Positions 25,291-64,000 of a stretch of 64,000 nt of DNA are shown here, in pieces; position 1 is the first letter of the stretch, and every line of letters starts with the position of its first letter. The stretch spans positions 13,098,430 through 13,162,429 of the forward strand of contig OZ038383.1 in the NCBI GenBank assembly GCA_964036045.1. The letters are read 5' to 3'. The notes beneath the pieces are model-generated. The model was given only the letters and a program-made list of their open reading frames with translations. It was not told the DNA's origin and searched no databases. The DNA is from Eutreptiella sp. 'Long Island Sound 2002' (Eukaryota; Euglenozoa; Euglenophyceae; Eutreptiales; Eutreptiaceae). The position numbers and the translations under genes were made by a program.

Positions 25291-25377
25291 CACACGTAGG
25301 GCGCGCGAACAGCGGGGGTAAAAGGCGGGGGAGGTGGGGGACAATGGCGACAGGGCGCAGGGCTCAGGCGTGATCCC

Positions 25378-44111: not shown

Positions 44112-45348
44112 CAGCGCTAACAAACGATGGAGGGATAGATTAGAAAGATTGCAGATGATTAGAGGTAAGTCCAGGGTGATTAGACATACATACTTATGCA
44201 TAGCGTCGTTTCTCGCTTGTGTCTCGCTTTTCCCTCACGTTGCTTCACTCTCCAGCGGTGAGTAGGGTAGGTAAGCCCAGGTGGGGCCACCCCCTGGTGG
44301 AGTTCGTGATTCTGAGTAAGATTAGGAAGAAAAACAGTGGTGGACCCAGATTGACGGTAAACTCGTGCATGCTCGTGCATTCACACACCCATTAAAGGGT
44401 AGGCCACGCGAAGTGCGCACAGTAAACCTTGTTTAGGTTACCCAGGGGCTCCACCCCACGTTCTATAAGAGAACGGGTGGAGCTTCCTAAGCTTACTTGA
44501 TGGGGGCGTTTGTGGACAGCGTATTATAGGGCCATCTGAGAAGCGTATAATACGTGGAGATGGTCTTGGTTCCTCTGCTGCAAACGCTCCTGCATCCGCC
44601 TTTGTTTTCCAGGTGGGAAGGTCAGGGTGAACTGCTGCAGTCCCAAGCCGTGCTACAATATGCGGCGCTGATCACACACAAACCACAAGCTGCGGCTCAG
44701 CCAGGAGTGGCAAGCGCAGCCCGACCCCCTCAACATCCACGCTGTGCACGAAACAAGAGCACCCCTTCCCTCCAAGCCCTAGCAGGGAAACGCGTTGTGG
44801 CGTCCCTGTTAGGCCACAGAAGCTTAGTAGCTCTGTGTTTTCCTGCACTCTCACAGGTGAGCAGCTAGGGCTCTTGTCTTCATCCTCAACGCCACCCAGT
44901 AGTGCGTGCGTGTAGGAGTGGTAGTCCTGAGTGGGGGCTTGAGCCAGTTGCAGAAGTGCTCGCCCACCAGGATGGTGCCACTGTAGGGTGTGTAGGACCT
45001 GTAGTGCGTGTGTCACTGTCCCACCCTTTTTCTGCAATTTTAGAGGGCTTGGTGGGCAGTGGCAGCGGTTAGGCTAGATTTTGGCCATTGTAGCAAATAG
45101 GCGTTTTCAAGCCTTCATAGCTTTTGGCCATCCCTCCCTGTAGTAGACAGATAGGTAGGGAAAACAATACCTGGATTAGTACGCTGGGTATTCCCCCAAG
45201 GTTTTGCGCCAGCACAGCAATCGGGCGCTTAGGGGAGGGGAGACCCGGGGCGTACCCAGTGGCATCGGTAAGACAACCCTCCAGGTTTAGCAAGCTTGCA
45301 GACTTGGGTATAATTAGGACACCACTTCTGCGGCTTGCTCGCAGGACC
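44112..45348. other. Internal non-coding part of the LTR element
   Basis: No gene is seen. Sequence similar to 51270-52058 of the diverged relative indicates that this region belongs to the family's non-coding internal domain downstream of gag. Confidence 0.6.
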
Positions 45349-47744
45349 TTAGGTCACCTCAAACCCCTTGTTCCGCAATTTGCGGGCCATCCTCATGAAT
45401 CGGCTTCTCTTCTTAGCGTTGCCGTCATCACCACCTTCATGCTCACGCTTCGCTCCTTGTTCTCGCCGGGCCTGCGTTTGTGAGCGCGTGGTAGGACCAG
45501 ACTGCCCTCCAGAGGGCTCGGAGTTCCCCCCTGGATTAGGGTTTGGGTTGCCTCCGTTCTTGTCCCGATTTCTGTTGTCTGTGTCTGGCTGGCAGTTAGC
45601 GCCTCCTTCTCGTCCACCTTGACTCTTGTCTTGCCCTTTTCGACGTCCTTTCGACTTGCCCTTGCCGGAGTCGTTGCCGTTGCCCTTGCCACTGCGCTTG
45701 CCAGAGCCTTTGCCAGGATCCTCGCCCTTCAGCTTCGCAGACAGGCGCTGCTTGTGGTAGCACTCATCCTCGTAGTGCTTCCTCTTCCCACAGAAGGCAC
45801 AGGTGATAGTACACCTGTAGTGATACGGCATCTTCGCTTTGGCGCCGGTGTTGGTCTCCTGCTTCTTCCCTTGGACTACGAAGCAGTCTCGGGCTCGCAG
45901 TCAGGGGCGTGCTGCAGGTGGCCCTGCTCATCTCTGGCATCAACCAAGAAGAGCTCCTTGACATTTTCAATGATACGGGCGTGTTTGGGGGTAGTCCCCT
46001 GTCCAGGTCGAGGTCCTTGGCACCCTTTGCCATGGCCTCCAGAGCCTCCCCCTCCAGGACGGTAGGCGTTCAGGTGCTTGTCCCTTTCTTTCTCCAGCGC
46101 CAGCTCCAAAAGTAGCACACATAAACCCTCGTAGTGGAGGGCTCTAGCCTTGCGCTCTGCCGTTGAACGGCACTCGTCCCACAGCTCTCAAGGGAGCTTA
46201 GCCACCAACCAGAAAAGCAGGTCGTCGCTGCTGTAGGAACCGGGCGTCAATCGTCCGGCCGAGTGATCCAAGTCAGCCAGTAGCTCAGAGACCCTGCTAG
46301 GTTTGGGGTTGATGGGCAGCACGGCCAGGTTCTGGATCTCGGCCCTGATGAGGAGGTCGGTTTCATAGGTTGGGTACTGCCTCTTCAAGGCAACCAGCAC
46401 GTCGGCAAAGGTGGTTGACTTAGTCACAATCCGCTTGACCTGCTTCTCCAGGTACTTGGTCTTGCAACACTGCAGGAGCAGATCGTAATTGACCCGTCCA
46501 CTAGCGTGGGTTTGGCCGGTCATTCGGAGGAACCGGCCAAAATTCTCAGCGAACTCGCTGAGGTCCTTGCCTGTGAACTCAGGCAAGTTGACCACGATCT
46601 TGGAGGTGGCAATGGCCTTAGCCTCCTGAGACCTGCGTCCCTCAGGGCGCCTGGTCTTCCTCTTCTTCTTCTTCTTCCGCCCACTCGGGTTCTTGGGGAC
46701 CTCAGGGTCATGGTCCTCCGAGGGCGAAGCAGAAGTCATGGACGGCGGCTCATCATCAGAGGGGTCTCTGCCTAGGTCACTAGAGACATAGGGCCCCACG
46801 TCAACCATAACCCTTAGGGCTGTCAGCCCCAGCTGGTCCAGCTCGGCTCTGGTGGAATTCCCCACGTGGCTGTAGGGAGGCTGGGCCGTTCTTGGTATGA
46901 AAGGGCTTCTCGGTATAACAGCAGGGGCCGGCATCGGTCGGCTCCTCAGGCTCTCCAGGGTGTTTGTCAACCCTGCCACCAGGTGATTAGCCTGTACTCG
47001 GTGGGCTGAAACTCCCACGATGGTAGGTGACACTTGGGGCGGAATCAGGGGCTCTAGTTTAGCCCGAATCTCTTGAGTGAGATCACCAACAAGTTCAGGG
47101 GTGGCTCCTCGGAGAGCCTCTTTTATCTCCGACCGCGTCAGGGACCTGTTGGAGGATCTTCCCGATCCTCTACTCCTGCTCCCGCATGACTCAGGTGCAT
47201 ACCCAGGAACATCCACATAGGTTCCCGTAGCAGGTAGAGGATGGTGATAGTCAGCCGCGTACCATCGCGGCGCAGAACTGGAGGCCACTGGCCCACTGGT
47301 AGTAGTTGCCTCTGGAAACGCAGTGGTAGATGGGTCCACACCATAAGCAGGGTAGGTAGGCATACCAGTAAAGCCTGTGCCCTCAGCCATAGGCGGGGTG
47401 GTTATGGGTGTGGATGTTGTCGCGGCTGGGTCTGGAGTTGGGAGTGTGGTGGTCGTAGGAGAGGGTGATGTGTGGAGGTCAGAGGCGCTTTGTGCGCCCT
47501 CGAAGGTCGACTCACTCGTCGGGTTGTGCCCATGGTCTACTCCTTCGTCTGCCATGCTTTCTCCGGCATCCTTCTCTCTGTCTCTCTTTCTCTTCCAAAG
47601 TTTGGTGTGCACCTCCTCGACTGAGAGGGCCCAGAAGGCCGACCGAAGTCCCTCCGGCGAGTCATCAACCACGTCCACTGGCCCATGTAAGGGCACGAAA
47701 GGCACAGCGCTAGGTCCAGGTCCAGGTTCACCAGGTGCTGGCAT
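45349..47744 (-). pseudogene. Ty3-like Gag with CCHC zinc knuckle
   Basis: The ATG at 47744 begins a 518-codon frame with a Pro/Ser/Thr-rich N-terminal half, a Lys/Arg patch near 46680 and a retrotransposon Gag (capsid-like) domain starting with NLPEFTGKDLSEFAENF near 46600. A TGA at 46188-46190 interrupts it. The same frame continues to about 45876, then a frameshift leads to the segment with CAFCGKRKHYEDEC (45800-45760), a C-X2-C-X4-H-X4-C knuckle, and a basic tail to 45349. Gag would package the RNA. One nonsense and one frameshift make this copy defective. Confidence 0.85.
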
Positions 47745-47883
47745 TGCTGTTTTCCTCAGGCGCCGTCCTCACGTCGGTGTCTTTCTTCTTTTCCGTCCAT
47801 ATTCGCCCTTCTTGCTTATATATGACATATCTCAGCGCACCGGATGTACGGCACGGGGTTGCTGCCGGTATGCAGAGACTGTC

Positions 47884-47898
47884 TGCCTCTTGCTACCA
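47884..47898 (-). promoter_or_regulatory. Candidate primer-binding site
   Basis: On the minus strand TGGTAGCAAGAGGC follows the 5' LTR. The leading TGG pairs with the universal tRNA CCA end, so a tRNA ending GCCTCTTGCTACCA would be the primer. The tRNA species is not identified. Confidence 0.6.
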
Positions 47899-48691
47899 GA
47901 ATGTTTTATAGTGATTTCAACACTGGGTTTTTGTTGTGCCTCTCCTGCTGCTTGCTGCTGGTGTAGGGTTCCTGCTGCTTGCTGTTTGATGAGGAAAATG
48001 TTTTTATTGTTGAAATACAACCAATCCAGGATAACCCAAGCCAGAGATAAGCAAGGAGAAGATAAACAGGATCAAAGCATGAAGGGCTGCAGTCACAAAG
48101 AGTTAGATAAAGACAACTATCAACAATAGACCACAGCAAATAGCATATATTGCAACTCAGGATGAAATATTTCACATGTTTGCGAAAAACTGATTAGAAA
48201 ACTGCCCCAAAGGCTCACTCTCATCCAGAATGCCATCTTGAGATGTGCACTCTTTGTTTTTGGGTCCCATAGGTGCTGAGGTGGCATGGCTTGTGGCGCT
48301 GAGGTCACTGCCATCTCACATGGGATAATCCTACTTAGCTAGGCTGACTGGGTATTGAACCCAGGACCTCTCAAAAAGAGGTGCCCCAGCCGCCTAGGGT
48401 GCATACGACTAGGATAGCTAAGAATTCATGAGAAAACATAGATAAATTGATAGGCTCTGCCTTCAGTATAACAGTGCCTCAGTCACCCAAGAAAAGATGT
48501 TTTAGTGCCTATAGCTTGGGGATTAAGGGATCCACACAACATCCTGATTTAGTGTTTGGTTCCATAGGTCAAAATGTGTTATCACCCATTTTGTGTAGGC
48601 AAATACTAAGATAAAAATGCAAGAGTGCTTAGAGCACCTCTAATACAACTAACGTATACTCTAAAACATCGGAAAAGCACTTTTTCTTACT
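47898..48691 (-). repeat. 5' LTR
   Basis: 794 bp, the partner of 38649-39440. In minus orientation it ends ATAAAACATTCT and is followed at once by the primer-binding-site-like sequence. It should contain the promoter; a TATATAA-like stretch at 47814-47825 lies downstream of it, before gag. Confidence 0.88.
48335..48421 (-). other. tRNA-like sequence inside the 5' LTR
   Basis: Same as 39084-39170 with a few substitutions. The acceptor-like arms and the T-arm are kept. Confidence 0.55.
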
Positions 48692-48696
48692 CTTCA
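48692..48696. repeat. Target-site duplication CTTCA, right
   Basis: CTTCA immediately outside the 5' LTR end; the partner is at 38644-38648. Confidence 0.75.
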
Positions 48697-48907
48697 TCAC
48701 GCGGGTTGCACACTAGTGTCGCCATCTACGTGGGAAAAACAGGTTCCAAGGGCACCAGGTGAGAATGACGCCACGACCGCTGGAACATCACTGGGACGTG
48801 GAGGCTGTGAACTCCGTGATCCCCAGGGACATGGACCTGCCGGATGGCCCTACTCCTGTGCTCCCGGGCCAGCCCCCAGACCTCCTGACGGCAATCGTGT
48901 CCGGTAG

Positions 48908-49156
48908 GGCCGGCACCTGGCACCCAGGACAGCCCTCTGCTGCCTGTGGCGGTGGGCCCAACGGAGGTGGCAGCACAGTAAGGAGTGGTCAGTGACATGC
49001 AGGTTCCACGTGGAGCGCGGGCAACAGGCGGAGATCATCCCGCCCCGCGACCGGGCGAGCCCCCCCACCACGGATAACTTGTGCCCCGTGTTCACAGTCC
49101 ACCACATCCGAGCATTGGCGGCGGGACACGTGTCAGCTGCCGTCCACAAGGAGTAG
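48908..49156 (+). CDS. Short ORF remnant, unassigned
   Basis: An 82-codon stretch open between TAG 48905 and TAG 49154, of ordinary composition with a Trp/Arg-rich start. It has no ATG and no recognised family. It lies between the target-site duplication and the next LTR and is probably a decayed element fragment. Confidence 0.25.
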   Translation, partial: GRHLAPRTALCCLWRWAQRRWQHSKEWSVTCRFHVERGQQAEIIPPRDRASPPTTDNLCPVFTVHHIRALAAGHVSAAVHKE

Positions 49157-49516
49157 GAAGCAGGACAGCACATAGGACCCTCGTGAGCGAGATCTTCGCC
49201 GCCCTCCGCACCGCCCTCGTCCGGCATTCCGGTAACCCCGGGATGCCTTGACCGATGACGGGCCACAACCTAGACCCCCCCCAGGACGCGCGGATCACCA
49301 AGATGGCTACCATACAACACTGGCCACCACAGGGCCACATGGCCCGACGGAGGAGACCACCGCCCCGCCCGCCCAACAGGGTGGGGTACCAATGTGGCAC
49401 CATTGGGACCACCTCAACCCGACCCCATCAGCTGTGTGCCGGAGCCTCGAATGTTCAGCTACGGTGCATGCCCGCGAGCTGCCGATGGCAACCCTTCCCC
49501 CAAGGTGTGCACCACG

Positions 49517-50292
49517 AGAAAGTTCAAACATGCTTTCACTGTTGATTTCTTTGATGATATTGTTTAGTTTGTGCCTCTGCTTGCTTCTGCTGCTTCTTGG
49601 TGTAGCTCAGGCTTTTCAGATAAATATGTTTTGATGAAATCAACCAGAAATTCAAGTACCCCCAGTGCAAGCAAGGGACCACAGGATCAAATCCACAACA
49701 TGAGAGGCTGCAGTCAAAGGGGATAGTGTGTCAACAAGGGAACTCACAATAACTACAGATTTAGGAAAAGATAGTTACAAAATATCCTACAATCATTGGA
49801 AAACTGCCCACATGCGCACTCTCTCTTTTATAGTGCCATCTAGACATGTGCACTCTTTGCTTTGGGTCCCATTGGTACTGAGATGGCATGGTATGTGGCA
49901 ATGTGGTCACTGCCATGTCACATGGCATATTCCTACTTAGCTAGGCTGGCTGGGAATTGAACCCAGGACCTCTCAAAAAGAGTGGTCGCAGCGCCCTTAG
50001 GGTGCAGACCACTAGGATAGCTAAGCATTCATGAGTAAATATAGAAAAATGTATAGGCTCTGGATCAATGTCAGCGCCTCAGTCAGTCCAGGAAATGGTG
50101 CTTAAAACCAATCTGTTGGGGGGTTAGGGGTCCACTGAACATCCATAGTTCAATGCTTGGTTTTATAGGTCAAAGTGCTTTGTCACCCCTTTTTGGATAG
50201 GCCAATACTAAGATAAAAATGTAGTATGCCTTTAAGCATCTCTAAAACAACTAAAGGTTCCCTTTTGGCATGGAAATACACTTTTTCTTACT
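49517..50292 (-). repeat. Diverged 3' LTR of a related element
   Basis: Clearly related to the LTRs at 38649 and 47898 but much more diverged. It keeps the terminal AGAAAG and TTCTTACT sequences, the tRNA-like segment (49937-50024, with a GGTTCAATTCC B box) and an adjoining G-run purine tract in minus orientation. Its mate LTR was not found. Confidence 0.75.
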
Positions 50293-52058
50293 CCCCCCCT
50301 GTGCTGTGTTGGCCACTACTGTCGCATTTTAAAAGAGAGAAAGGTATTTTTTTGACCTCCCCATGGTTTCAACATTTTTCTAAAATTACCTATAACATTC
50401 CTAACACTGGAAACAAGGCGCTGCGTAAGGGCAGTCGCCAGTTTTTGCTTTGTCGTAAAAGACTCCTACAGCTCCCACTGTAATCATGGGCGTCACTGGG
50501 GCAGCTGTGGCTTGGTAGGGGGTTAGAATGGGCATGCCAATTCATGTGTGCATGCACACCTCCCTCAAAAAGAAAAGTGCAATGCGGTACGCAAAGCCCA
50601 ACGCAGGATACGGTCAGGGCACGCTGTCTGGGGTCTCGTGGAACCTGTAGGCTGACCTGACCTGTCCTTAGGGCGAGGGGGCGGCGTTGAAAATTATTTT
50701 GCCCCTTAATGGGGTCTTGGAACTGTGGACAGTGGTCCAGGAGTCAGCGCTTCGACCAGAACACGACCTACTTCGCTGTTTTCGCTCCAGGATATCTGCA
50801 GAGAAAAGATGCAGGGGTTGCGGGCCTACCTACGCGCAATGATCGACGTAACACCAAAATCAGTCAAATGACGGCCTAGAATTTTCCGAGGGTACACACC
50901 TGTCCGGAATCTCCATGTGCATTAAATGCACATTTTTAGGCATTTTTTTTTCATCACAGGAATTTTTACATCCCTGGATTCACATGCAGAGAAAAGGGGC
51001 GCGCAGGAGCGCATCCTAATTGGGCGCCGGAAAAGACAGAGTAAATAAGATTATAACAGTATGTCACGTAATAATAAGGAAATGACGAAACACACATTAA
51101 ACAATAAACGTAGAGATTCCACGCATGCTTATAGGAAAATTCAGTAATGAAGAATTCGATAATTCAATAGAGATTCGCAGAGCAAGGTATACACATACAG
51201 GTTTTTGTTGCTTCGTATGCAGCATGCACATTGCTTGTCTCGTGTTACCGCAGACTAGCCGTGTAGCAATGCAAACATAGAGTAGAGGGATTGATTAGAA
51301 GATTGCACGATGATTACAGGTGACATTAGGGAGAAACAGATGGCCTTCGGCCAGGGAGTGGTCGTCATTGGGGGCTAACGGTCCTGTCCTGCGATGCAAT
51401 GCGGGGCACCATGACAACTGTTCTTACACACCAACCTCCCTTTTTTGTAGCACTGACTAGAACATACACATGCGTGCATAAACACTTTGACTCGCTTCTG
51501 TGTCCTTCAACACTCCCACTTGCTTTCTCTCTCCAGCAGTAGGTAAGGTGCCCAAGCCCAGGAGGGGCCAGCCCCTGGTAGAGTCAGTGATTGTGGAGAG
51601 AGTCGCTATGGATTGATTGTTAAAGGATTGTTCTAAATAGTAGATTGGCGAACTCGTGCATACCTGTGCATGCATATGGCGCATTAAAGGGTAGGCCACC
51701 CGTGTTGCTCACCGTATAACCCTTGTTTAGTTTACCCAGGGGCTCCACCCTACGTCCTATAAGAGAACGAGTGGAGTTCCTTAAGCTTGCTTGCTTGATA
51801 GGGCGCCGTGTAGACAGCGTATTATTTTCCAGCCTGAGATCCGTATAATACGAGGAGCCTGGTTAGGTTCCTCAGCTAAAAGCCGACTGCATTTGCCTCT
51901 GTTCTCAGGTGGGAAAGGTCAGGGTGATTGGTGCAGTCCCTTGCCCGGCTAAACAGGGCGCTGATCACACAAACAACAAACTGTGCTTCAGCCAGAAGTG
52001 GCGAGGACAGTCCGTCTTCATCAACATTCACGCTGTGCACGCAGACCTTAGGCGGTCG
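50293..52058 (-). mobile_element. Truncated internal region of the related LTR element
   Basis: Similar to 39441-40402 and 43831-44760 in the same order, without the 3.4-kb insert. Similarity ends near 52058. No coding sequence is seen, and gag and 5' LTR are missing, so the element is truncated at this end. Confidence 0.7.
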
Positions 52059-52669
52059 AAGGAGGTGTGTTTTTGTACCGGGGTGTGTGCAAATTTGGTA
52101 TAGGTAATTTGCCCGAGTTTCCTATTTTTTTCTACCACAAAATTTGACTACTGGGCTTTTTTATTCAATCACCAACGAAAATGCATAATTTTCCTCCAAA
52201 AAAGGTCTCACAATGTTTGCTATTTTACCCGGTTTTCTGTAAAATGAACTAGAAAACCTTGCTTTTTGTTGTTCTCCTCTCCATGTTTTTTTCTCCGGGC
52301 TTGAAAATGCACTTCTTACGCCGGTGGTTTCCGAAATGCTGTAAAAGGGTACCATTTTCCTGTTCGTATTGCGAGGCCTCGCGATACGAGACATGAGACA
52401 ACGTAATTCGCTGCAATTACACACAGCTTCAGATCATCCGGAAAGAAGCAAAAACAGAATGCAGAGTATCAATACATTCTGTGCCTTGACACGTGAGGCT
52501 TTCGGAATGCAAGGCCTCGCAATACTGACTGCTGCCTTAGGGTCAGTATATTCGTCATCTCCAGGTGACGCTTCTGAAGACAGAGCTGAAATGGCGAATT
52601 GCCTAATCCGGAATGCGAGATCTGGCAATGCGAGACGACATACCACAAAAAAAAGGACTGCAACGCCCT
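52059..52669. other. 3' flank of paralog copy 1 with palindromes
   Basis: No gene. It holds a near-perfect 24-bp palindrome centred on GAGGCCTC at 52365-52388 and a degenerate one at 52508-52521. Confidence 0.6.
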
Positions 52670-53340
52670 TTAGGGCGTCTTCTTCTTCTTCAATCCCGCT
52701 GCAAACATCTTACTCCTCAACGTCGAGCCCACTGTTGTTCCGGGATCCGGAAGGCTCAGCGTCCTCTTCACTACCTGGGGCTGCGTCAGTGTCGTCTGCT
52801 TCGGCTCAGCTGCCGCCTGGGTCTGTGGCGTCTTCGGCTTCGGCGCCTGGCTCGCCCTGGGCTCGTCATATTCTGCATCGCCAGCCTGGAACGCCCGAAC
52901 CTGCGTTGACTTCCGAGGAGATCGCCGATCAGATCCTGTCAGCGGCGGTTCATTGTCATCGTCCCCAAGTTCCTCCAAGTCTTCGTCTGCACCTTCTTCA
53001 TGGGCATGATGACTTGCTTCCTCTGCCGTGGACACCTGGATACGCACATACCCCACGTGCTCGTCCTCAGCCCACATTGGCATGTCGAACTGGATCCAGA
53101 GCTCGCACTGCGCCAACCTGGTCTGGTCGATTCCCGCCTGCACACGCTGCGTCACCACTTGATGGTAGCTCCGTGCCCAATCCGACCGCCTCTGTTTGGT
53201 CAATTGCAGAGACCAAACTTGCGGAGGATTGTCCAACGCTGCCACCTCCGCAACCATGTGCACATCGCGATATAAAGCACAAGGGGCATGAACCCTGGTT
53301 CATCACGTTTGCGGCGACCCAAACCGATGTATGGTAGGAT

Positions 53341-53408
53341 CTGTAGTGAGGAGGCGCGAGATGGCACAGGCATTGCGAGGCCTCGCAATCCAAAAGCGCT
53401 GTACATAC
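53341..53408 (-). other. Intron with central palindrome, copy 1
   Basis: 68 nt, GTATGT...CTACAG, phase 0, with an 18-bp perfect palindrome at 53372-53389. It occupies the same position and phase as the copy 2 intron at 61595-61661. Confidence 0.8.
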
Positions 53409-54415
53409 CTTCTTCTTGATCTTCACACCGGCCATCAGAACTAGTGGTTTTACTTGAATTCCGCCTTTTCCTGTCTTGCCTGCACCAGGGAGCCAGTAGC
53501 ACACTTGCACTTTTTCATACCAGTAATCGTTCTCGGCATTTCCAGGCGTCTCAAGAACTGTTTGCAGGGCGTCCCAAACAGGCTCCACCTCGCTGTAGAT
53601 CACACGCACAGTTTCAGGGTTGTCAATCAACTTGGCCATCACAACGGGACTCACAGGATCAGCACCGTCCACCAGATTCGCATTCAGAATGATCATGTCG
53701 CTGTCCAGAGCCTCCAAAAACTTCAGGGGATCCTGCGGATCTTTGTAGGGGGCGTACAGCATTTTGACAACCTTTCCAGTGACCTCAATGTTAACCACGT
53801 CCACTTTTCCGGACTCCGCCGACTTGACTTCCGTCAAGGGCGATGCCAGTTGTGCACGCAGGCGACCAAGGTCCATGGATGAGCCATGCTTTGGATGAGT
53901 GTTTCCCATCACCGTCCAGAACCGCGCCTTGCTGAGCATTTCCCATTTCGGCGACGGAGCCTCAGCTTTCCATTGCCAAGACCCCAAAAGGGATCCGAAA
54001 CCAAAAAACATCCCAGTCGTGCAACGGTAGCTTCTCTGCCGACCTGGCCTCTGTAATTGTGTGAAATGTTGCGTTTATCTTGTTTGCGTGTTTGCTTACT
54101 TGCTTCTCAGGGGAACATACTTCGGGTCGGATGAATGACGCTGTCCGGCGCGGCTCCCCAATGCCAATTCATCCAGTGCTGCTTCTGGTAAGCAGAGGCC
54201 CGGTCCTGGATTTCCTTGATGTTCTTTTTTGGTCTCGACATGTCGGCGGCGACCCGTTGTAGGAGCGATGGCTGGTACAGACCCTGCAAGAACTTCAGCT
54301 GGTTCATTGTCACCGGCGTGTCCATCATCTCGAAATTATCCAGCAACGTCGCCGCTGCGTCCTCCGCATGGTACACCCAAGTGAAGAACGGTCCACACGC
54401 CTTGACTGAATAACT

Positions 54416-54482
54416 CTGGACAGGAGGAGGATGAGTAGCCATATTCGGATTGCGAGGCCTCGCATTCGACAATGGAACATAC
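54416..54482 (-). other. Intron with central palindrome, copy 1
   Basis: 67 nt, GTATGT...TCCAG, phase 0, with the palindrome at 54451-54464. Equivalent to the copy 2 intron at 60454-60524. Confidence 0.8.
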
Positions 54483-54841
54483 TTGGAGTTCATCATCGGA
54501 AGCCTGTGATGGAATCCAAGCACTTCCGCTAGCGGCTTTCGGGATGGTTCGGTGAATGTGTTCTCTGGCAGTCTGGTCAGGCCCAGCCGGCGAATCTCGC
54601 AAATGCATAAGGAAGTTGTCAGCTGCTTCCGACGGTGGCACGGCGGAGATGTCGAGATCGATGGCCTGCTTCCGACCGGGGATTGATACTCAGGTAGCCC
54701 AACTGGTCTCCGTTTTCAGCAGGTTGACCTTCACCACTTGCATCCACTGCGGTGGGTCAAGGCCCTACTCAAGACGCTCGTTTCGGAGTTCTTTCAGCGC
54801 ACAGACGCAGTGCTGCTTTGCAATGACAATCCAATCGTCGG

Positions 54842-54909
54842 CTGAAGACGAAAAAACGTTTTTGGCGAGTATGCACATGAAACATCACCGCTGCGACCAG
54901 GGTATGTAC
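54842..54909 (-). other. Intron without palindrome inside the ParB-like domain, copy 1
   Basis: 68 nt, GTACAT...CTTCAG, phase 1. Same position and phase as 60019-60091 in copy 2, which does carry the palindrome. Confidence 0.7.
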
Positions 54910-55192
54910 CTGGTGATTGCCATGCAGTCACGGTCAAGGGCTCCTCAGGTGAGTTGGCCATAAGACTTCTCTTAACCTCGTCCACTCGCTTCTGTTGATA
55001 CTTCTGGATCTGGCCGTACTTCTTCTTGTCGATAGAAAGGCTCCCGATGTCGACCTCCAGCTGCAAAGGCTTCTTTTAGATCCTCAAGAAGTCCTCTCGC
55101 ACCGTTTCCTGCTTGGATGGTATTTGTGAGGTGTTCGGTGATGCTCTGCCCGCTTCCGTTGGCGTCCAATTCTCTGCCATGTGGAAATAGGC

Positions 55193-55277
55193 CTGTAAAG
55201 AGGGAGCAAACTGTACATCTTTGTCCTTTGATTGTGAGGGCTCGCAAGCAACATTATAGGTATTTGTCGGCAATTAC
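55193..55277 (-). other. Probable intron with decayed palindrome, copy 1
   Basis: 85 nt, GTAATT...TTACAG, with a degenerate palindrome at 55232-55247. The donor choice is uncertain. Confidence 0.5.
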
Positions 55278-56820
55278 CTACTTTGTATTGCGAGGCCTCG
55301 CATTAGGGTAACAACATGTGGTCAAAAATGTACTTTTTGAAAAAGCGATTGCGAGGGCTCGCATTCCGAACACGCAGTAGTGAGCAAACGCACCGGCGTG
55401 CGCGCAACAAGAACAACCGAGCTGGGATTCAAACTAAAAACCATTCTCTGCATCCGTAAAGGCCCAGAATGTGTCGAGAATGTTCATGCGCTACGCATCA
55501 GACCGCAGAGGAACCTTGTTGTCCATCAATCGTATTACGGCAGGTGACAAATTCCGTGGCTGCCGCAGAAATGTACGCAAAACATCGGTCAACACAGTTC
55601 TGTATGTGTCCACGTCCGGCTCGCTGTAAGGGTCGGACTAAAAATCTGGTTCAGCCTCCCAGTGCCTCTCCCTGGTCGAGGTACCCGACTGCCAAGGACA
55701 GCACCGAATTCTCAGGCCGTCAACAAGGATGGGCACAATTGGGTGCGTGTCGTTCTACAGGGATGCAATGTAGTCCAACACCTCGATCAGGCCCTTGTAC
55801 GAGGATACCTGATGCGTACTCAGCAGCAGCGGTTTCCAACCAGGATTCGGTACTGGATCTCGCACGATGTCAAGGGGCGCCCTGATGCTCGGTAGTGCTG
55901 CAGGTCTGTCTGCAAGCAGGCCCAGATCTATCAGGATCCCATGAAAGCTCCGTTTCATCCTCGCAAGCGCTGCAGCCACACTGCCAATGCTGCCGATGAG
56001 CACATCTATGTTTGGGTGTCCTCTGAAATACGGCAACCTGCACGGAATCTCAACGATGCAAAGGGCTCTGCAATTTTGCGATTGATCCTGGATGGTTGGA
56101 TGCGTTCCATAGTGCTTAATGTAGCAATTGTCGATCCAGACGCAAACCTGCCGGTTCTCCATCCATCGCCATGTCTCAAGCATCTTTGCCGCCAACCGTT
56201 CCTTCATAGTTTCCTCTCGCAGCCGCAGCAGTCCTGTCCTGCGCAACCGGCGCCTGTACTGACGACCGATGGGGGCAAAACTTGGGGCGTCCTCGTCCTA
56301 GTGCTGGGGAGTGCACCGCAAGCGCAAAATGTTGTATAAATTGAAGAACTCCTCATTGAAGTGACTAGCCGCTCGGCTCCCTGGTCCGCTTTTCAAACTC
56401 AGTAGTGAGTGCCGTGTTTCCCGGTTCAGTCGCAACAAGCGCGACAAAGAAAAAAAGAAGACAGCTCCACTCTTGTTCTTTTCAACGGCAGCCCATAGTG
56501 ATTCAGCAGTGGTATACCCATGTTCTGTTGCACAGAAAGCTCGCAATCCCTTGACAGTGCGTTCCAGCTCTCTCTTCGCTCGATGCGCAATGTTACGTGG
56601 CATGAACAATCATGTCAAAGAATCAAAAAGGTGCATTTTATTATACAATTCCACAAAAAACAGGCTCCTTTAACGCTACAGGTAAATAGAATTTCTTGCC
56701 AGCACAGCGCTGCACACGCGACACGCGCATATTGATCTTTGCGCGCAACTTCGCCGCGCGTGCGCATTCTCGGTTACCGGTATCGGTCAACTGGTCCCAC
56801 ATTTCTCTTGTTTATCACTT

Positions 56821-57000
56821 TTGCGGTACCCAGTTGCGAACCGCTACGATCGGTGTTGGGCAGTGAAGCCAGCGGTGACCACAGTATGAAAACTAGAAAT
56901 GCCGGCGGGACCTGTATGGGCACCCATACAGTAGCGCCGCATCAAAGGGAATGCACATGCTGTGTAGCTGGTGGATCTGTCCATTTAATTGTTTCTTGTG
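56821..57000 (-). repeat. Conserved leader block, copy 1 arm
   Basis: The reverse complement matches 57961-58140 at about 89% by eye, far more similar than the genes themselves. An ATG on the minus strand at 57004-57002 lies just downstream of the palindrome at 57008-57021 and could start a short frame. Confidence 0.75.
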
Positions 57001-57960
57001 CCATTATTGCGAGGCCTCGCATTTCGATTAGCGAAACTACACCTTTTGCGAATATTTCGAACCGCAATGCGAGGGCTCGCATTCGAATTCGCATTGGAAT
57101 TTGTCATAATTACCCTAATACGAACTCTGCATGCGTTGGACTGTGGTAAAACAAATAAAATCGAATCATCGTATTGCGAGGCCTCGGAATACGTTGCAGA
57201 AAAAAGGCGTAACAACCAACACGTGGTGCGACGCACAGTGGGTTTCGCTTCCATGTTGCGATACCATTGTACGCAGCAGTACAAAGGAACCCAATCTGTT
57301 GCAACGTCACGAAAAAGGTACCTTTCTTTACTGAAAAAACATTCAAAAAAAATCAGGTCCAAAAAAAACAGGGTAATTCACTGAAATAACCCACATAGTT
57401 CTCAGTGTTTTATCAAAAATGAGCGGTACAAAAGCGTACCTGTCTTAGGCGGCTCAAGTTGCATGGTCAAAAACGAAGGAAAAGGTAGGAAAATGACAGG
57501 TTTCCAAAGGCAGCGAAAAATAGTTGTTTTGCTGGATATTATAAAAGCGTCGCAAACAAGTATGGCGGATTAAATATTTCTATAAGAATGATGTGTCCCA
57601 TGGGCGAGACGGGGAAAAGTATTGTTTGCTGACCATTCTTTGCGCGAGGCGTCGCAGAAAGACGTTCATTTGTGTCAGATTAACGTGATACAGCACGACA
57701 CATTAAGCAGGTTGTCGAAAAATGGAACGCTGTCGTATTTGTACACGTAACTTAGTACCATTATCAGGATTGCGTGATAGAGGTAGATCTATTAACGAAT
57801 AGACTGCAACAATGGTGTACCCAAAAATCTTGAAAAGTATGAATGTTCCGGAACAAACTGCAGTTTCAAGCGCGAGGCCTCGCGCATGGAACGGTGCATG
57901 AAAAACATCAAAGTTTCGGTGATCATTGCGCGAGGCCTCGTGCAATGGAGGTCACAAGCG
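57001..57960. other. Divergent intergenic region with palindromes of both types
   Basis: Between the two leader blocks there is no supportable gene. TGCGAGGCCTCGCA-type palindromes lie at 57008-57021, 57068-57081 (centre GGGC) and 57170-57193. The GCGCGAGGCCTCGCGC-type lie at 57870-57885 and 57924-57947. The switch between types falls between 57193 and 57870. The region should hold both promoters, but no clear TATA box was identified. Confidence 0.6.
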
Positions 57961-58140
57961 TTCATAAAAACCAAAATTGGACAGATCCACCAACTACACA
58001 GCATGTACCTTCCCTTGATGCGGCGCTGCTGCATGGGCGCCCATACAGGTCCCGCCGGCATCTCCGGTTTTCATACTGTGGTCACCGCTGACTTCACTGC
58101 CCAACAGCGATGGAAGCGCGCCGCAACTGGGTACCACAAT
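57961..58140 (+). repeat. Conserved leader block, copy 2 arm
   Basis: Partner of 56821-57000 in inverted orientation. One frame encodes CMGAHTGPAGISGFHTVVTA, with mostly synonymous changes between arms, suggesting a selected exon. Another frame starts at the ATG 57945-57947, which is the last three bases of a palindrome. Which frame is used is unresolved. Confidence 0.7.
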
Positions 58141-58331
58141 CAGGATTAACTAGTGAAATGTGGGATCACCAGACAGTTACAGGTAACCGAAAATGGTGCA
58201 TGCGACAAGCGAATTACAGAATAATTGGTCGCGCGAAAACTGAGTGACGGGTTGATGTTTGAAATCAAGAAAGTTTTTCAAACAGCGATTTTTACGCAGA
58301 TACAGTTACGCAATTATTCTTTACAGCAACA

Positions 58332-59336
58332 ATGTCCCTGCGAAAAGAGGTGGACCTTGAGAAGACAGTGGCCGCAGCATCCGGAGTTTTCCGCGATGTC
58401 TGCTCAGAGGAAACGCAGTACCAGACGGCAGACGAATTGTGGGAAGGGCTAAAACAGGGGGACGATGGCGCGCGATTGTTGTTTGTGTTTCTTCTGCGTC
58501 TGCGCAAAAATGAAGGGACGCGTTGCAGCATTGAAAAGGCGATTGCGGCAGAAGGGAAGAGATGGGTTGGTGTTTTGATAGAGGAGGCCTCGCGCCACTA
58601 TTTGCTGATGCGCCACCGCGCAGTTCCATACCAGGGAAAACCAAAGTCAGTTGTTGCGGTAGAGGGAAGTAGGGCGCAGCGTCGCATTTTAGCAAGGTCA
58701 GGTCTGGCGCGATACAGCGCACCTTCGTTGAAGGAGAAGGCCGCAGTCAGGTTACAGACTACATGGGACAAAATTTACCAACAGTGGGTTGTGTTGTGGA
58801 TGGACAACTGGTACAACAAACAGTTTACCACAAATCCCGACAAGAACGACAAAAGCCTGAACGCAACAGCGTTGGCTGTGTTGCTACTCAAGGATGCACC
58901 GCGCCACTGGCATGGTCATCCTAGCCTGGAAGACCTTGAACGGCGTGTTCCTATTGTTGCACGCATGCTGGGAAACACCGAGGGAACGTTTGCACGTATC
59001 CTGCACGATCTAGGATTTGCAAGCACGCGACCTGTTGTGCGAAACATTAGGGCACTGCTTGACATTATTCGCCCTGTACCTGCCAAAAGACCACATTGGC
59101 GACCCCTTTGTCTAAGCAAAGAAAAGGTAAGCGGCAACCTATCGCTTCTTAACCTACTGCAAATTACTAGGGACTTGGCGCAGCACAGCCGACCAGTTGT
59201 CCCTGTCATATGTGATGAGAACATCCATTACCGCATTTGTAAGATGATGTACGGTGAAAAAACAACGGGTTGGAAGGTCCGGCTTTTTTTGCGTTCACAC
59301 CCTATATTAAGTGGTAACGCAGCAGGGGCCACTTAA
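58332..59336 (+). CDS. Paralog copy 2, first main exon
   Basis: The ATG at 58332 follows a TTCTTTACAG acceptor-like sequence. The 334-codon frame is alpha-helical and basic, with a DNWYNKQF segment near residue 157 and a conserved CDENIHYRICKMMYG segment near residue 298, whose Asp and His look like catalytic or metal-binding residues. Copy 1 keeps the Asp in PILVDGLRIR. The sensible reading leaves frame 0 at about 59310 and continues in frame 1 to 59450 (GPLKAGFKRKLSEL and a helical stretch), implying a 49-nt intron (59277-59325) or a frameshift. The family is not recognised. Confidence 0.65.
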   Translation: MSLRKEVDLEKTVAAASGVFRDVCSEETQYQTADELWEGLKQGDDGARLLFVFLLRLRKNEGTRCSIEKAIAAEGKRWVGVLIEEASRHYLLMRHRAVPYQGKPKSVVAVEGSRAQRRILARSGLARYSAPSLKEKAAVRLQTTWDKIYQQWVVLWMDNWYNKQFTTNPDKNDKSLNATALAVLLLKDAPRHWHGHPSLEDLERRVPIVARMLGNTEGTFARILHDLGFASTRPVVRNIRALLDIIRPVPAKRPHWRPLCLSKEKVSGNLSLLNLLQITRDLAQHSRPVVPVICDENIHYRICKMMYGEKTTGWKVRLFLRSHPILSGNAAGAT

Positions 59337-59685
59337 GGCTGGTTTCAAGCGAAAACTGTCGGAGCTGATCCCCCAACGCAGTGTGTTGGAGGAACAGAGA
59401 GAGGCCGACACGCTGCGAAACGTTCGAAGAAGACTGGAGAACATGCAGTGATGCGCGAGGCCTCGCGCAAACAGCATGAAACAACAGGTTAGTACACCCC
59501 CTCACTTGCGCGAGGCCTCACGCAAGGTTGTCAGTCAAAAACAGTGGCGTGCCCCTTCAGTTTTGCATTCTCAACCACACTGTGCTCGTAGTCGCTAAAA
59601 GCACCCCACATATGCATTATCGGCGACGATTTTACCCATTTTTAATGTCATGTTTCCTTCAATACAGGCTTTCTTCTTATCGCAG

Positions 59686-60453
59686 AATGGCAAGCCACGC
59701 CCAAAAAAACAGCCGAGGAACGAGAAGATACCGACTATGACCCTGGGACCTCAGGATCGGAGGCTGGAACCCCAAAGAAGGGGCGTAAGAAGAAGGAAAC
59801 ACCAGATCCTGGCTTAACCTTGGGTACTGACATCGAGGACCACCTGAAGCCGGACAAGAGGCAGGTAGAGGTTGAGCTGGACAATGTGAGAATCGACCAG
59901 GAGAAGACAAAGGGGCAGATCAGACGGAGAGATGCGAAGTTACTGCAGAAGCGTATTGAGTCACTCGAAGCAGCACCGCCAACAGGCCCATTACACGTCG
60001 TTCTCTGGGAAGATAATAGTATGTTACCAACCGACTTTTCGCTCTTCTCGTTGCGCGAGCCCTCGCGCAAAGACGTGTCTCATATTTGCAGATGGCGATT
60101 ATTGGTTTGTATCTGGACAGCACAGCGTGGAAGCGGTTGCGAGGATTCGGGAGAAGCGACTCACCGCGTGTCTGGATCTGCAGCAGTGGCATACTACATG
60201 CATCGCCGATATTCTAAAGCCTACGACACCGTGGGCCTTCCGTGCAAAGCTGGCGGGACAAGCACAAGGAAGCGCACAAGACTTTGAGCCAATTCCGCTC
60301 TATGAGGCAGCAGATAACCTCATTCGATGTGTTGAAGATCAGCGGTGGCGAGGCCTACCTGACACGTACAGGAATCTCAAGATCGCCATTGTGGATGCTG
60401 TGCAGATGAGTGCCCTGGTTCCAACCGCTGAACTGAAGCAACCTGGTCAGTTC
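59686..60453 (+). CDS. Paralog copy 2, ParB/sulfiredoxin-like domain in two exons
   Basis: Exon 59686-60018 has a charged low-complexity start, then a strand-helix-strand unit beginning VEVELDNVRIDQEKTKGQIR and ending GPLHVVLWED. Exon 60092-60453 continues with GDYWFVSGQHSVEAVARIRE. The order (beta-strand with conserved Asp, helix of the eLaesI type, PLxVV strand, then strand plus G-Q/H-H motif and helix) matches the N-terminal fold of ParB, Srx and related proteins, where the GxHR-type motif binds nucleotide. Here it is GQHS. The intron 60019-60091 splits the fold in phase 1, as in copy 1. Function is inferred from the fold only. Confidence 0.6.
60019..60091 (+). other. Intron with central palindrome, copy 2
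   Basis: 73 nt, GTATGT...TTGCAG, phase 1, with a 20-bp palindrome at 60051-60070 whose centre reads GCCC instead of GGCC. Confidence 0.85.
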
Positions 60454-60524
60454 GTATGTTCATTAATCGTTGTTTCGGCGCTCTTCGTTTGGCGAGGCCT
60501 GGCGCATAACGTTGTCACTGTCAG
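60454..60524 (+). other. Intron with decayed palindrome, copy 2
   Basis: 71 nt, GTATGT...TGTCAG, phase 0. The palindrome at 60491-60505 is reduced to GGCGAGGCCTGGCGC. Confidence 0.8.
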
Positions 60525-60822
60525 GACAAAACGTATAACTTGTGGAAAGATTTTATGACGTTTGCCTACTATGCTGGTCCGGAAGCTGTGAAAGGTCTGC
60601 AGAAGTTCCACGACAAAGGGGAGAAAGTCACGAAGAACGCGCTGAATAAACTGGACGGGATCCTGTTGCCGGAGTTCTACAACAAAGTGGCAGAAGTGAT
60701 GCAGGAAGAAAAAACAACCCTTAAATCCTTGCATAATTCGTTTGACGACATCATCCTTGAGCAGTGGGTCTCAATGCATCTGGACCAACCGCACAACGGC
60801 CAGTACGTTCGACCTGAGAAAG
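60525..60822 (+). CDS. Paralog copy 2, helical exon
   Basis: About 99 codons, mostly helical, starting DKTYNLWKDFMTFAYYAGP. It aligns with copy 1 exon 54415-54121 (SYSVKACGPFFTWVYHAED) and has the same flanking intron phases. No domain is recognised. Confidence 0.65.
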
Positions 60823-60902
60823 GTGTGTACCATCGACGCGACTTGGGTTCCATTTCTGCATCAGTGCGCCGCACTTTCTCCATTTCTGTTCTTTGGCCAA
60901 AG
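60823..60902 (+). other. Intron without palindrome, copy 2
   Basis: 80 nt, GTGTGT...CCAAAG, phase 1. The equivalent copy 1 intron (54051-54120) also lacks the palindrome. Confidence 0.7.
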
Positions 60903-61594
60903 ACATGCGGACCCGCAAAGAGGTTGCTGCACTTGGAAGGTCTGCCCTGAAGGTGACTCTTGGTACATGGAGCTATTGGCGTGAGTCTGAAGGCAAAAGT
61001 CGCGGCCCATGGCCGGCATCGAAATCCATGATTCGCGCACCACTGTGGCAGGTGGCAGAGAAAGGCAAACCCGCCCCCCTGAAAATCCTCAACGTCCAAA
61101 AACTCCTGGGTCAAGAGCCTACCAAGAGCCGTGTGGTCCCCCCACCTGCTGGCGTTACTGGTGACTTCAAGACAGTGGAACAGCAGGATCCATCATTGTC
61201 GCAAACTATCACAGTTAAGGCGACCCGAAATGCAGCGTTTAACCACGAACCCCCGAAGCGGTTCATGGAGATTGACAAGAACCTGATTATCATCAACGGC
61301 GACATATTTGAACATCTTGCTCCTGAGACGATGTGCCCAGCCTGGCTGTATGAAGAGATGGCGGTTGCCGATACCCTTATCTGCGGCTCCAAAACTGTTG
61401 CTGAGAACATGTTCAACGTGTTTGAAACGGAAACAGAGAGGCGTCTCAACGATGATTTCAACGCGCCGCGCATTGGCCACATGTTGCTTATTCCCATCTT
61501 CAGTTGGCCAGTCAAACCGAAGCCTGCAGGGGATCTTACAACGTTTGACGTTCGCTGGTTGCTGATTGCTCCACCGGATAGCTGGTCGAGAAAG
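60903..61594 (+). CDS. Paralog copy 2, exon with conserved acidic core
   Basis: About 230 codons in frame 2, including TLGTWSYWRESEGK and a beta-rich part with MEIDKNLIIINGDIFEH. Copy 1 aligns through LGSWQWKAEA and LEALDSDMIILNANL. The exon ends AAG at the donor 61595. No family is recognised. Confidence 0.65.
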
Positions 61595-61701
61595 GTATAA
61601 TTCCCTCATTACGTCCGCTCTTTGCGCGAGGCCTCGCGCAATAACTTCTCCCTCATTGCAGATTCTGAATTATCTGACGTTTGGACTTCCTCAAGTAGAG
61701 G
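61591..61701 (+). repeat. 111-bp duplication of intron and exon start, left
   Basis: Recurs at 62743-62853 (offset 1152) with about four substitutions, none inside the intron body. It flanks the 1041-bp insert. Confidence 0.9.
61595..61661 (+). other. Intron with perfect 20-bp palindrome, copy 2
   Basis: 67 nt, GTATAA...TTGCAG, phase 0, with TTGCGCGAGGCCTCGCGCAA at 61622-61641. The whole intron recurs at 62747 onward. Confidence 0.85.
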
Positions 61702-62742
61702 TGCCCTCATTCTGCAGAATCCGGCGATACCCCACCTCTTTCCGACAACAATTCTGAAGCGAGCTCAGGAGTACATGGCCGTTTCTGGGGTACCGATTCA
61801 TTGGCCTCAGCCATGAGCAGCGCTCACTCCCTCGCTAAGGGGGGGTCGGCTAATGGCTATTCATTTTTTGAGCAGTCGTGTGCAACATCGGTGTTGGAGG
61901 ACTTGGACTGGCTTGATGATGCTTGTTTTTCTGCCCACCGCCACTTATGTAACGACACCATTGTGAAAGGGCGCGGCTATCAAACTACCTGCAGCTATCC
62001 AAAGTGCGACTGCAATATTCTTTGGCGCCGTGTGCAAGGCATTGAGCGCAGCGCTATCTGCTGCCCTCGTTGGCATGACCGGCAGGGAGACAAGCGTTCT
62101 ACCATGCTCTCCTCTTCGTGACTCATCTCTTTTGCCAGCGCAAGGTTTCGGAAACCACTCGACTTTCTGCTACTGAGTGCTACTCTGCTGATATTTCTCA
62201 GCTTCTCAGCACATTGATGTGCCTTGATGTCTTATCTTGCTCTAGTCTACCGTGCTGCAATCTGCCTGTGTCCTTTTCCCCTAGGGGTGAAAGCAAGGCT
62301 TTTTGCAAACTGCAGAGTGGGCAGGAAAACCAACCCACCTTTGGTGCAGAGACTCTGTGCCTACATCTATCTATTTTTGTACCGTCCTTTTAAATTTCCA
62401 CAGGTCCTCTCTCCTTTCACTTCATCGACAGACCACGTGCTACACCACCAACACAACAGACAACACACACCAGCACACTTCTTCACTGAATCCCCACGTA
62501 CAGAGCAAGTACACACATAACCAACACCACACACACACCAGTGCACACAGTAGACCACACGACATTTAGGCGAGTTCCACTTTGGGTCTCTGACCCTGAA
62601 TTCTGCTCCGGGTTCCTCAACCCTTTACTTCTCTGACTTGTGCCCATCTCACAGCTACAACTATCATCTGTAAATTTCTGGACGTCTTCCTGAGGGGGAC
62701 GTCAGCCCCTGAACAAGTTGATGCGGTTAAGAACATTAAAAA
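61702..62742 (+). mobile_element. 1041-bp insertion between the 111-bp duplications
   Basis: Absent from copy 1, where the equivalent exon is continuous. It contains a 107-codon frame and ends in ATTAAAAAAAA, resembling a poly-A tail. The family is unknown. The long flanking duplication is unusual for a simple retro-insertion. Confidence 0.6.
61801..62121 (+). CDS. Small ORF with cysteine cluster inside the insertion
   Basis: ATG candidates lie at 61801 (TTG-initiated frame) and 61813. The product of about 103-107 residues has a Cys/His-rich middle with CSYPKCDCNILW, and a further Cys pair (ICCPRWH) about 20 residues on, suggesting a zinc-binding module of a transposon protein. It does not match a family I can name. 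Confidence 0.35.
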   Translation: MASAMSSAHSLAKGGSANGYSFFEQSCATSVLEDLDWLDDACFSAHRHLCNDTIVKGRGYQTTCSYPKCDCNILWRRVQGIERSAICCPRWHDRQGDKRSTMLSSS

Positions 62743-62853
62743 AAAGGTATAATTCCCTCATTACGTCCGCTCTTTGCGCGAGGCCTCGCGCAATAACTTC
62801 TCCCTCATTGCTGACTCCGAATTATCTGACGTTTGGACCTCCTCAAGTAGAGG
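62743..62853 (+). repeat. 111-bp duplication of intron and exon start, right
   Basis: Partner of 61591-61701. The acceptor is changed from TTGCAG to TTGCTG, so this copy of the intron has lost its normal 3' splice site. It is preceded by an A-run at 62738-62745. Confidence 0.9.
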
Positions 62854-63612
62854 AGATGGATCCTGTTGAATTTGGCGGTCACCTTCCGATAACGACGGTT
62901 ATGTGGTATTTCGACACTCACCTCTTTCACCTGAAGCAGGATAAGACCTTCAAGCCTGTGTGTTCATTGATCATCAGCCGGATCTGGTGTGCAAGATCGC
63001 GTCCGTCGAGCTGAATTCTCGCATGTACCTTCTTGGTGTTACCTCCGACAATCTCTCCGATTGGGTCAACAGGGTGCAGACTCAGTTGAACCATGTATTG
63101 ACACAAGAGTCGAAACTGCACGCGTCTGGTGATTGGGACCAGCAAGCCAACTGGGCAAACCGTGGTATTCCCCTATGGGTTTGCGATGACAAGGTGGGTT
63201 ATGAGGCGTTGTCGCTGAAGGAGGAAGAGACTGTTGAGAAAGGTCAAGCTGCAGAAGCACTGGCCCCTGCGGAGCGGAAGTCTACTGGTGGGGAACCAGC
63301 CCCCAAGAAGAAGAAGACTGCCTCCAAGCCTCAGGCAGCGAAGTCAGTTACCGGTGCAGAATCCGACGAGAGCGATGGGGATAAAGAGGAGGAGAGCGAG
63401 GAAGAAGAGGAGGAGGAAGCGCAGGTCTCCCAGGGCAAGGCAGCGAAGAAAGGGGCAGCGAAGCCGAGGTCCGAGGAGACCGCGCTCCATTCAAGCAGCC
63501 AGGCTGTCAGTCCCAACCAAGAAGCGCGCCCGCAAAGCCACCTCCTAAGGGTAACACGTCCGTTGCTAAGGCTATGGGTTCTAAGATGCAAACTGTTCCG
63601 AAGAAAAAGTAA
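62814..63612 (+). CDS. Paralog copy 2, C-terminal exon
   Basis: The sequence reads in frame 0 (NYLTFGPPQVEEMDPVEF) to about 62958, in frame 2 (LVCKIASVELNSRMYLLG, then DNLSDW) to about 63470, and in frame 1 (ending SKMQTVPKKK, TAA 63610-63612). The tail is Lys-rich with an acidic Glu tract, like a nuclear protein tail. Copy 1 shows the same blocks, including the first -1 change of frame. The second shift may be a real lesion or a sequencing error. Confidence 0.55.
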
Positions 63613-63989
63613 TTTCTTCGCTTGATCTGATATATTATGCGCGAGGGCTCGCGCTATGCATTCCTCTTCAACGACCTTTAGGCTGTCACCTTGTGCGGCA
63701 CATTTTTCTCTGTGATGCATTTTATGGCGCTGTTGTGTTGGTGTTGGCGCGAGGCCTCGCGCAAAGAAGTGGTACCAAAAAATGCTTCTTGTGGTGCTGG
63801 GTGCAACATGGCTTTCGAAAACTGGTTTTCCAAAATATTGAAACCTCACGGGTGTTTTTATTGCAAAGCATAAATGGTAGAGGAAACAAAAAGTCGTGGT
63901 TTTCCCAAAAAAGAAGTTCATCTGGTGGAAATAAATCTTTTTCCCGGGCAGTCGGTTTTGTTGAAAATAAAGGAAGATGGACCAGTTAA
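63613..63989. other. 3' flank of paralog copy 2 with palindromes
   Basis: No gene. Palindromes lie at 63639-63654 (centre GGGC) and 63747-63762 (perfect 16 bp), mirroring the two palindromes beyond the end of copy 1. Confidence 0.6.
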
Positions 63990-64000
63990 TTGCTTTTCAC

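Follow-up and report, generated by a model that had tools for sequence, protein, structure and literature searches.

A stretch of 64,000 nt from Eutreptiella sp. 'Long Island Sound 2002' (contig OZ038383.1, here C6, positions 13098430-13162429; the whole stretch is called the window) contains a patch in which one short palindrome is repeated many times. Judged from the sequence, this patch is two nested DNA transposons with terminal inverted repeats (TIRs), an element R that lies inside the 5′ TIR of an element L. The palindrome is, with a probability of about 0.8, a family-specific DNA site of two-fold symmetry that is recognized by a protein encoded by the element itself. The family-specific arms of the palindrome, its linkage to the TIRs, the recurring distances and the retention of the sites in elements without detectable genes were observed directly.

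The palindromic sequence GAGGCCTC occurs 15 times in the window versus an expected number of 1.4, and none of 100 shuffled sequences reached 15. Fourteen of these occurrences lie at 52373-63758, with one outlier at 32645. Allowing up to two mismatches to GCGAGGCCTCGC yielded 24 places (3.3 expected), 23 of them at 52371-63760 and a stray one at 39909. The near-matches at 58582 and 60348, which lie in coding exons, look like chance. An earlier note on this DNA had reported about 20 palindromes in 11.4 kb and nowhere else; the number was borne out by the 23 near-matches, and the restriction to this region is nearly correct, apart from 39909 and the exact GAGGCCTC at 32645. In the 2.28-Gb genome the core was found 13,991 times versus 54 times for the control. 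Exact sites numbered 6,172 for the R type (counted with the palindrome W pattern, which is wider than TTG..CAA), 3,608 for the S type of a third family described below, and 175 (85 + 90) for mixed G/W sites, whereas the controls yielded 0.

The boundaries of the two elements in the window are as follows.

52047-64130, minus strand: element L, TIR DNA transposon, interrupted by R (52047-57443 and the rest of the 5′ TIR at 64112-64130, past the window)
52047-52083, minus strand: 3′ TIR of L
Flanks CAGAC/CAGGC: target duplication of L, 5 bp, four of five letters equal
57444-64111, plus strand: element R, TIR DNA transposon in the 5′ TIR of L (last 111 bases beyond the window)
57444-57472, plus strand: 5′ TIR of R, CTTAGGCGGCTCAAGTTGCATGGTCAAAA
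Flanks CCTGT/ACTGT: target duplication of R, four of five letters equal

Three hallmarks of class II elements were found, i.e., matching TIRs, a target duplication of fixed length and, for the L and R pair of the window, an empty paralogous site. The latter lies at about 44240-45350, where the joined outer flanks of L align at 76% identity over 1,153 columns with small gaps only. For comparison, sequence was taken from the right flank of the window and from contig C1, where 16 stretches cover the surroundings of the first 50 core matches listed (C1 and C6 comprise 201 and 147 Mb); the sampling was seeded on the core palindrome, so that families with another core were out of reach. Comparison of the stretches with one another revealed that 15 of the 16 from C1 contain repeated elements whose ends are sharp. 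A third family, S, consists of elements of 6.8 kb with the TIRs CTTAGCCCACGCAAACTGCACCC. The TIRs of R and S are 23 bp or longer, and they were found genome-wide at 1218 + 1161 (R) and 799 + 800 (S) places, with 0 for the controls. The target duplications of 5 bp were exact in nine of ten elements checked; four of five letters agreed in L013 and in the R and L of the window. This group of transposons is apparently undescribed, as far as Pfam scans and literature listings go (Repbase and Dfam were not searched). As a separate observation, the leaders of L (56765-56986) and R (57975-58195) share 222 bp at 84.7% identity, though their gene 1 proteins are only about 32% identical, and this stretch had no match in the S copy L010. 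Gene conversion or a common promoter are possible explanations.

The type of the palindrome follows the family of the element. The half-sites read WTGCGCGAGG in R, AGTGCGCGAGG in S and AWTGCGAGG in L. When families were assigned by homology or TIR, 115 of 116 listed site matches from 22 elements were nearest to the consensus of their own family, the lone exception being a match with five mismatches in an L exon. The same linkage was seen for sites taken from the genome-wide listing. Exact R TIRs at less than 7 kb enclosed 36 of the first 50 listed R-type sites, and exact S TIRs enclosed 47 of the first 50 listed S-type sites, while none of these 100 sites was inside TIRs of the other type; part of the 100 sites sit in the stretches by which the families were defined. 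This distribution, mostly at recurring distances, also argues against the idea that the palindrome itself is a tiny transposable insertion that hops into elements. The many near-identical cores could be read in that way, but with sites so bound to elements of their own type we consider it hardly conceivable. Furthermore, the comparison of R with R′, a relative of 77% identity, revealed identical letters at 93 of 100 site positions versus 956 of 1,218 positions outside (leader and 3′ stretches; Fisher P = 0.0002), where a site was counted as such if one copy or both had the exact core, a criterion that biases the result towards conservation.

Two groups of short elements retain the sites without detectable genes. 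M elements of 1,709 bp have R TIRs (L007, L016) and four R-type sites, and S-mini elements of 1.2 kb have S TIRs (L022-L025, L008) and three S-type sites; the TIR types are identical to those of the long elements. Gene fragments compared with L007, L016 and L018 gave no match. Local alignments of the L016 M element with R and of L022-L025 with S showed little in common beyond the TIRs, an A/T run and the sites together with a few adjacent bases. The partners without genes thus reduce the cis code to TIRs and sites. Next to the M elements, long frames that resemble retrotransposon polyproteins and contain a YANPPF motif were noticed (L007 6054-7928, L016 7126-9999).

Autonomous elements contain about ten sites, which are distributed over the leader, the gap between genes 1 and 2, the introns and the 3′ region with two to three in each, so that most sites lie outside introns. 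Neighbouring sites are about 55 to 2,500 bp apart. The sites outside introns in the window are listed here.

57640-57659: R-type site 1, decayed, about 206 bp from the 5′ end of R
57868-57887: R-type site 2, about 434 bp from the 5′ end
57926-57945: R-type site 3, about 492 bp from the 5′ end
59451-59470: R-type site 4, at the stop of gene 1
59506-59525: R-type site 5, between genes 1 and 2
62774-62793: copy (62778) of the site at 61622, within the 111-bp direct duplication of intron 61595-61661 plus flanks
63637-63656: R-type 3′ site, about 466 bp from the 3′ end
63745-63764: R-type 3′ site, about 358 bp from the 3′ end
57006-57190, minus strand: three L-type leader sites, cores at 57009, 57069 and 57176
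55231-55365, minus strand: three L-type sites between genes 1 and 2, cores at 55234, 55290 and 55351
52368-52523, minus strand: two L-type 3′ sites, cores at 52371 and 52509

The distances from the element ends recur. Counted from the 5′ end, the copies examined usually have one site at about 206-216 bp and, counted from the 3′ end, two at about 355-386 and 465-515 bp. The respective values are 207-210 (L010, L013, L026) and 353-356/512-515 bp for S, 209-211 and 355-357/511-513 bp for S-mini, 204-207 (206 with an exact end) and 357-360/465-468 bp for R, and 216 and 385-386/491-492 bp for M. The distances below 700 bp in the C1 listing form clusters at 206-216, 350-358, 380-386, 432-436, 486-492, 512, 614-618 and 672-678 bp, accompanied by single values of 198, 398, 584 and 648 bp.

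R, S and L encode one common set of two genes, gene 1 and gene 2, the latter with exons a to d and g3, and the proteins of the three families are 25-47% identical. The genes and the introns that carry sites are listed next.

58332-59448, plus strand: R gene 1, candidate transposase, with an internal deletion versus 661-aa relatives such as P0202
59682-61594, plus strand: R gene 2, exons a (to 60018), b (60092-60453), c (60525-60822) and d (60897-61594)
62856-63612, plus strand: last exon g3 of R gene 2, frame broken near 62960, displaced by a 1,041-bp insert with 111-bp flanking repeats
52673-56609, minus strand: decayed genes 1 and 2 of L, homologous to those of R
60019-60091, plus strand: intron a-b of R gene 2, site at 60051-60070
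60454-60524, plus strand: intron b-c of R gene 2, site decayed in the window copy, with an intact core in L012 and L019
61595-61661, plus strand: intron d-g3 of R gene 2, site at 61622-61641
54416-54482, minus strand: intron b-c of L gene 2, L-type site at 54449-54466
53341-53408, minus strand: intron d-g3 of L gene 2, L-type site at 53372-53389

These five GT-AG introns, the decayed one at 60454-60524 included, had been named in the earlier note and are supported by the continuity of the protein and by the presence of homologous introns in other copies. In contrast, a sixth proposed one, a decayed intron at 55193-55277, was not confirmed, and its site is one of the triplet between genes 1 and 2. 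The note had also placed introns at the centre of its title, which does not hold, as the palindrome is not confined to them. Splicing of gene 2 was attempted in five copies. The S copy L006 yielded an open frame of 880 codons after removal of four introns (69, 73, 71 and 97 nt), which is good evidence that the introns are real. The S copies L010 and L013 had early stops at codons 81 and 109, and in the R copies L012 and L019 the start pattern that was looked for was not found. In the R of the window, intron c-d (from 60823) has lost its AG acceptor (GG).

Introns and palindromes are, on the basis of their distribution in the three families, separate things. The introns a-b, b-c, c-d and d-g3 lie at positions common to the families (a-b and c-d of L could be placed only roughly), and the palindrome is present in 8 of the 12 combinations of intron and family. 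It was found in intron a-b only of R, in b-c of R, S and L, in c-d only of S and in d-g3 of all three; intron c-d of R bears the short AGTGCGCCGCACT in its place.

Introners are short introns with a common sequence, and some families have TIRs and target duplications, as described in PMC9860276. That the palindrome is the core of such a mobile intron, which inserts into genes, was suggested by its presence in five introns of the window, one of them decayed. We regard this as extremely unlikely. The intron positions are shared by families whose proteins are as diverged as stated above, four of the 12 combinations lack the palindrome, just two to three of the roughly ten sites of an autonomous element are intronic, and the elements without genes have no site in a recognizable gene. 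Introns that were transposed as units to new positions were not seen, with no search made for intron-free alleles; the unit that moves and is flanked by duplications is the whole element with its own TIRs. The part shared by the introns is the site within them, unlike the case of introners. This case is a warning that a motif common to introns need not mean that the introns are mobile.

The insert that displaces exon g3 in R lies between direct repeats of 111 bp (61591-61701 and 62743-62853, 96% identity) and is absent in the copies L012 and L019. The 111-bp repeat carries the intron 61595-61661 along.

A palindrome in transcribed DNA could also act in the RNA. Transcripts of Mimivirus reportedly follow a hairpin rule, and by analogy the palindrome might form hairpins that function in splicing or 3′-end formation. 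The palindrome would fold with a GGCC loop, and sites are present in introns and at the stop of gene 1 (59451). The arms were analyzed in 88 of the 116 matches, all from autonomous-type copies. This analysis omitted two matches in exons (L_win 3899, L021 1757), the duplicate at 62778 and 25 sites from M and S-mini elements. An excess of G-U pairs was sought at the arm positions d3-d9 of these 88 sites and was not found (9 G-U versus 12 A-C pairs). At position d7 of L, each half has A or T, with T-A seven, A-A six, T-T three and A-T two times, so that half are unmatched, which points to independently read half-sites rather than base pairs. The outermost letters of the first 50 listed R-type sites were T..A in 32 cases, A..T in six and unmatched in 12. 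A slight excess of symmetry, which would suit a hairpin, was confined to the outer positions d9-d10 (22 matched versus 20.2 expected at R d9, 14 versus 9.4 at R d10, and 11 versus 7.0 at L d9); apart from this, the arms are not kept by pairing, but their sequence itself is conserved across each family. In addition, elements without detectable genes retain the sites at equal distances from the ends. A function as RNA hairpin is therefore very unlikely. Rfam at gathering thresholds gave no match in 44000-64000. Of the three ideas that the earlier note had offered, protein-binding sites fit best, while introner-like units disagree with the shared and partly palindrome-free introns, and splicing hairpins fit poorly with the sites of gene-less elements and the lack of a G-U bias.

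The element-encoded protein would be the product of gene 1 or gene 2, which may bind the palindromes as a dimer. Protein searches with gene 1 yielded 222 relatives for the R query and 215 for the S query, and no named protein was present among the 120 matches listed for each query. Gene 1 encodes 661 aa in the full-length relative P0202. Both R and S have conserved D158, D295 and E502 of gene 1, and these residues also occur in the pieces of L; gene 1 has no Pfam match, and its structural model is poor. Such an acidic triad would fit a DDE transposase with an inserted domain. Several candidates were rejected. Two Pfam matches in single rows (24,736 models, 37 gene 1 rows), a P5A-ATPase hairpin with E = 0.0004 and JAMP with E = 0.086, were taken as chance. 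A ParB-like character of gene 2 exons a-b was seen by eye and has no statistical support (hhalign P = 0.038, probability 1.35%, no control comparison, no Pfam match). A giant-virus origin was also discarded, as the 20-bp R-type site had no exact match and the P0202 peptide patterns none in IMG/VR; tblastn of P0202 against phages gave no match either.

We hypothesize that each family reads its own version of the palindrome, matched to its own TIRs. The terminal sites might help to assemble or license the element for movement, whereas the dispersed sites might extend the occupation by the protein along the element, as VANC motifs do in anti-silencing. The leader, the intergenic gap and the introns would host further sites as available non-coding spaces; some sites would thus be intronic simply because introns are among the non-coding places available.

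The closest analogue appears to be the VANC motifs of the VANDAL transposons of Arabidopsis, compared by motif layout. VANC targets are tandem repeats of a 9-mer in one orientation. According to PMC5735166 and PMC10398659, the motifs are read by an anti-silencing protein encoded by the element. The VANC21 motifs are described there as mainly non-coding and family-specific, with motif-bearing repeats in introns of VANB21 and VANC21 and a proposed coevolution with the protein. Both systems share a short family-specific motif that is spread over the non-coding parts, introns included, of a multi-gene transposon of the TIR type. They differ in that the VANC motifs are tandem 9-mers in elements with degenerated TIRs, whereas the sites described here are non-tandem palindromes of 18-28 bp in elements with sharp TIRs, at recurring distances and retained without genes.

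A variant of the proposal, compatible with it, is that the sites recruit an element-encoded factor that lifts host silencing, with an indirect link to movement. The family-specific sites in the leader, the introns and the intergenic gaps are in line with this, but the palindromic, non-tandem form of the site and the three sites at set distances even in 1.2-kb elements without detectable genes are not. We regard this variant as possible, at clearly less than even odds.

Internal sites beyond the TIRs are also found in other transposons. En/Spm has repeated internal TnpA sites, and the binder encoded by the element serves movement as well as regulation. The Spm sites are 12-mers clustered near the ends, in contrast to the dispersed palindromes described here, and the target duplication is 3 bp. 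TnpA activates Spm (PMC10398659). The P element and its zebrafish relative (THAP9) have internal subterminal repeats at set distances beyond the TIRs and unequal ends, according to PMC7776569. The repeats at set distances from the ends are a shared feature, but the P elements have 8-bp duplications, subterminal repeats of 11-12 bp and spacers of about 100 or 400 bp, versus 5-bp duplications and about ten palindromes over the whole element here.

Multiple palindromic sites are also characteristic of ParB-parS, and the resemblance of gene 2 exons a-b to ParB/Srx was noted by eye only. A bolder scheme, which we consider improbable, would make the elements an undescribed superfamily of eukaryotic DNA transposons with a two-part identity code of TIR and about ten dispersed palindromes. 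The product of gene 2 would be a clamp of the ParB/Srx kind, loaded at the palindromes and spreading from there along the element. The transposon as a whole, together with its introns, would become one partition-like nucleoprotein body, and families would split when arms and protein change together.

Several results weigh against a family-specific, protein-read site with a fixed layout. On the protein side, the Pfam scan of gene 1 revealed nothing near the cut-off, the best match of gene 2 was DUF7309 with E = 0.011 and 15.6 bits versus a cut-off of 27, which is not near, and the AlphaFold models were poor, with a pLDDT (predicted local distance difference test) of 44.5 for gene 1 and 34.9 for gene 2 exons a-b. 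On the DNA side, about 4,200 of the 13,991 cores went untyped, and 14 of the 50 R-type and 3 of the 50 S-type sites lacked an exact TIR of their own type within 7 kb; these 14 and 3 sites may stem from elements with mutated or lost TIRs. The copies of one family share sites by descent, so that the counts are not independent events, and the L family is known from two copies (window and L021). The spacing has exceptions as well. The sites of L are located at 264 bp from the 5′ end and at 324/462 (window copy) or 351/489/595 bp (L021) from the 3′ end. The S copy L006 has no recognizable site near 207 bp, and the diverged M_L018, without a clear 5′ end, is off the pattern. L026 (148-2454), an S deletion derivative with TIRs and an exact 5-bp target duplication, has kept three 5′ sites and lost the 3′ pair; either this pair is dispensable, or the deletion came later. 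The stretch L009 (partly N) was assigned to no element and is the sole exception among the 16. The exceptions L006, L026, L009 and M_L018 bear on the spacing and not on the family-specific arms.

The role proposed for the sites is mobilization or anti-silencing. Between the natural families of these elements, of which two have thousands of typed sites, the palindrome seems to have diverged along with the protein presumed to read it. How a selfish element and its own address label coevolve can thereby be tested directly.

The remainder of the window contains further repeats. Positions 3884-8869 and 9796-14781 form a direct duplication of 4,986 bp at 99.9% identity, a 929-bp part of which is present in three copies, and a Gypsy-type RNase H/integrase frame lies at 2892-4424. 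At 14746-16410, nine units of 187 bp with many A/T inverted repeats are arrayed in tandem. Over the 14 kb of 16001-30000, GC skew and AT skew are both strongly positive, and this region surrounds a reverse-transcriptase frame of 1,340 aa (20784-24806). Finally, 33874-34189 and 35918-36333 are related arrays of the 11-bp unit CGTCAGGATGG.

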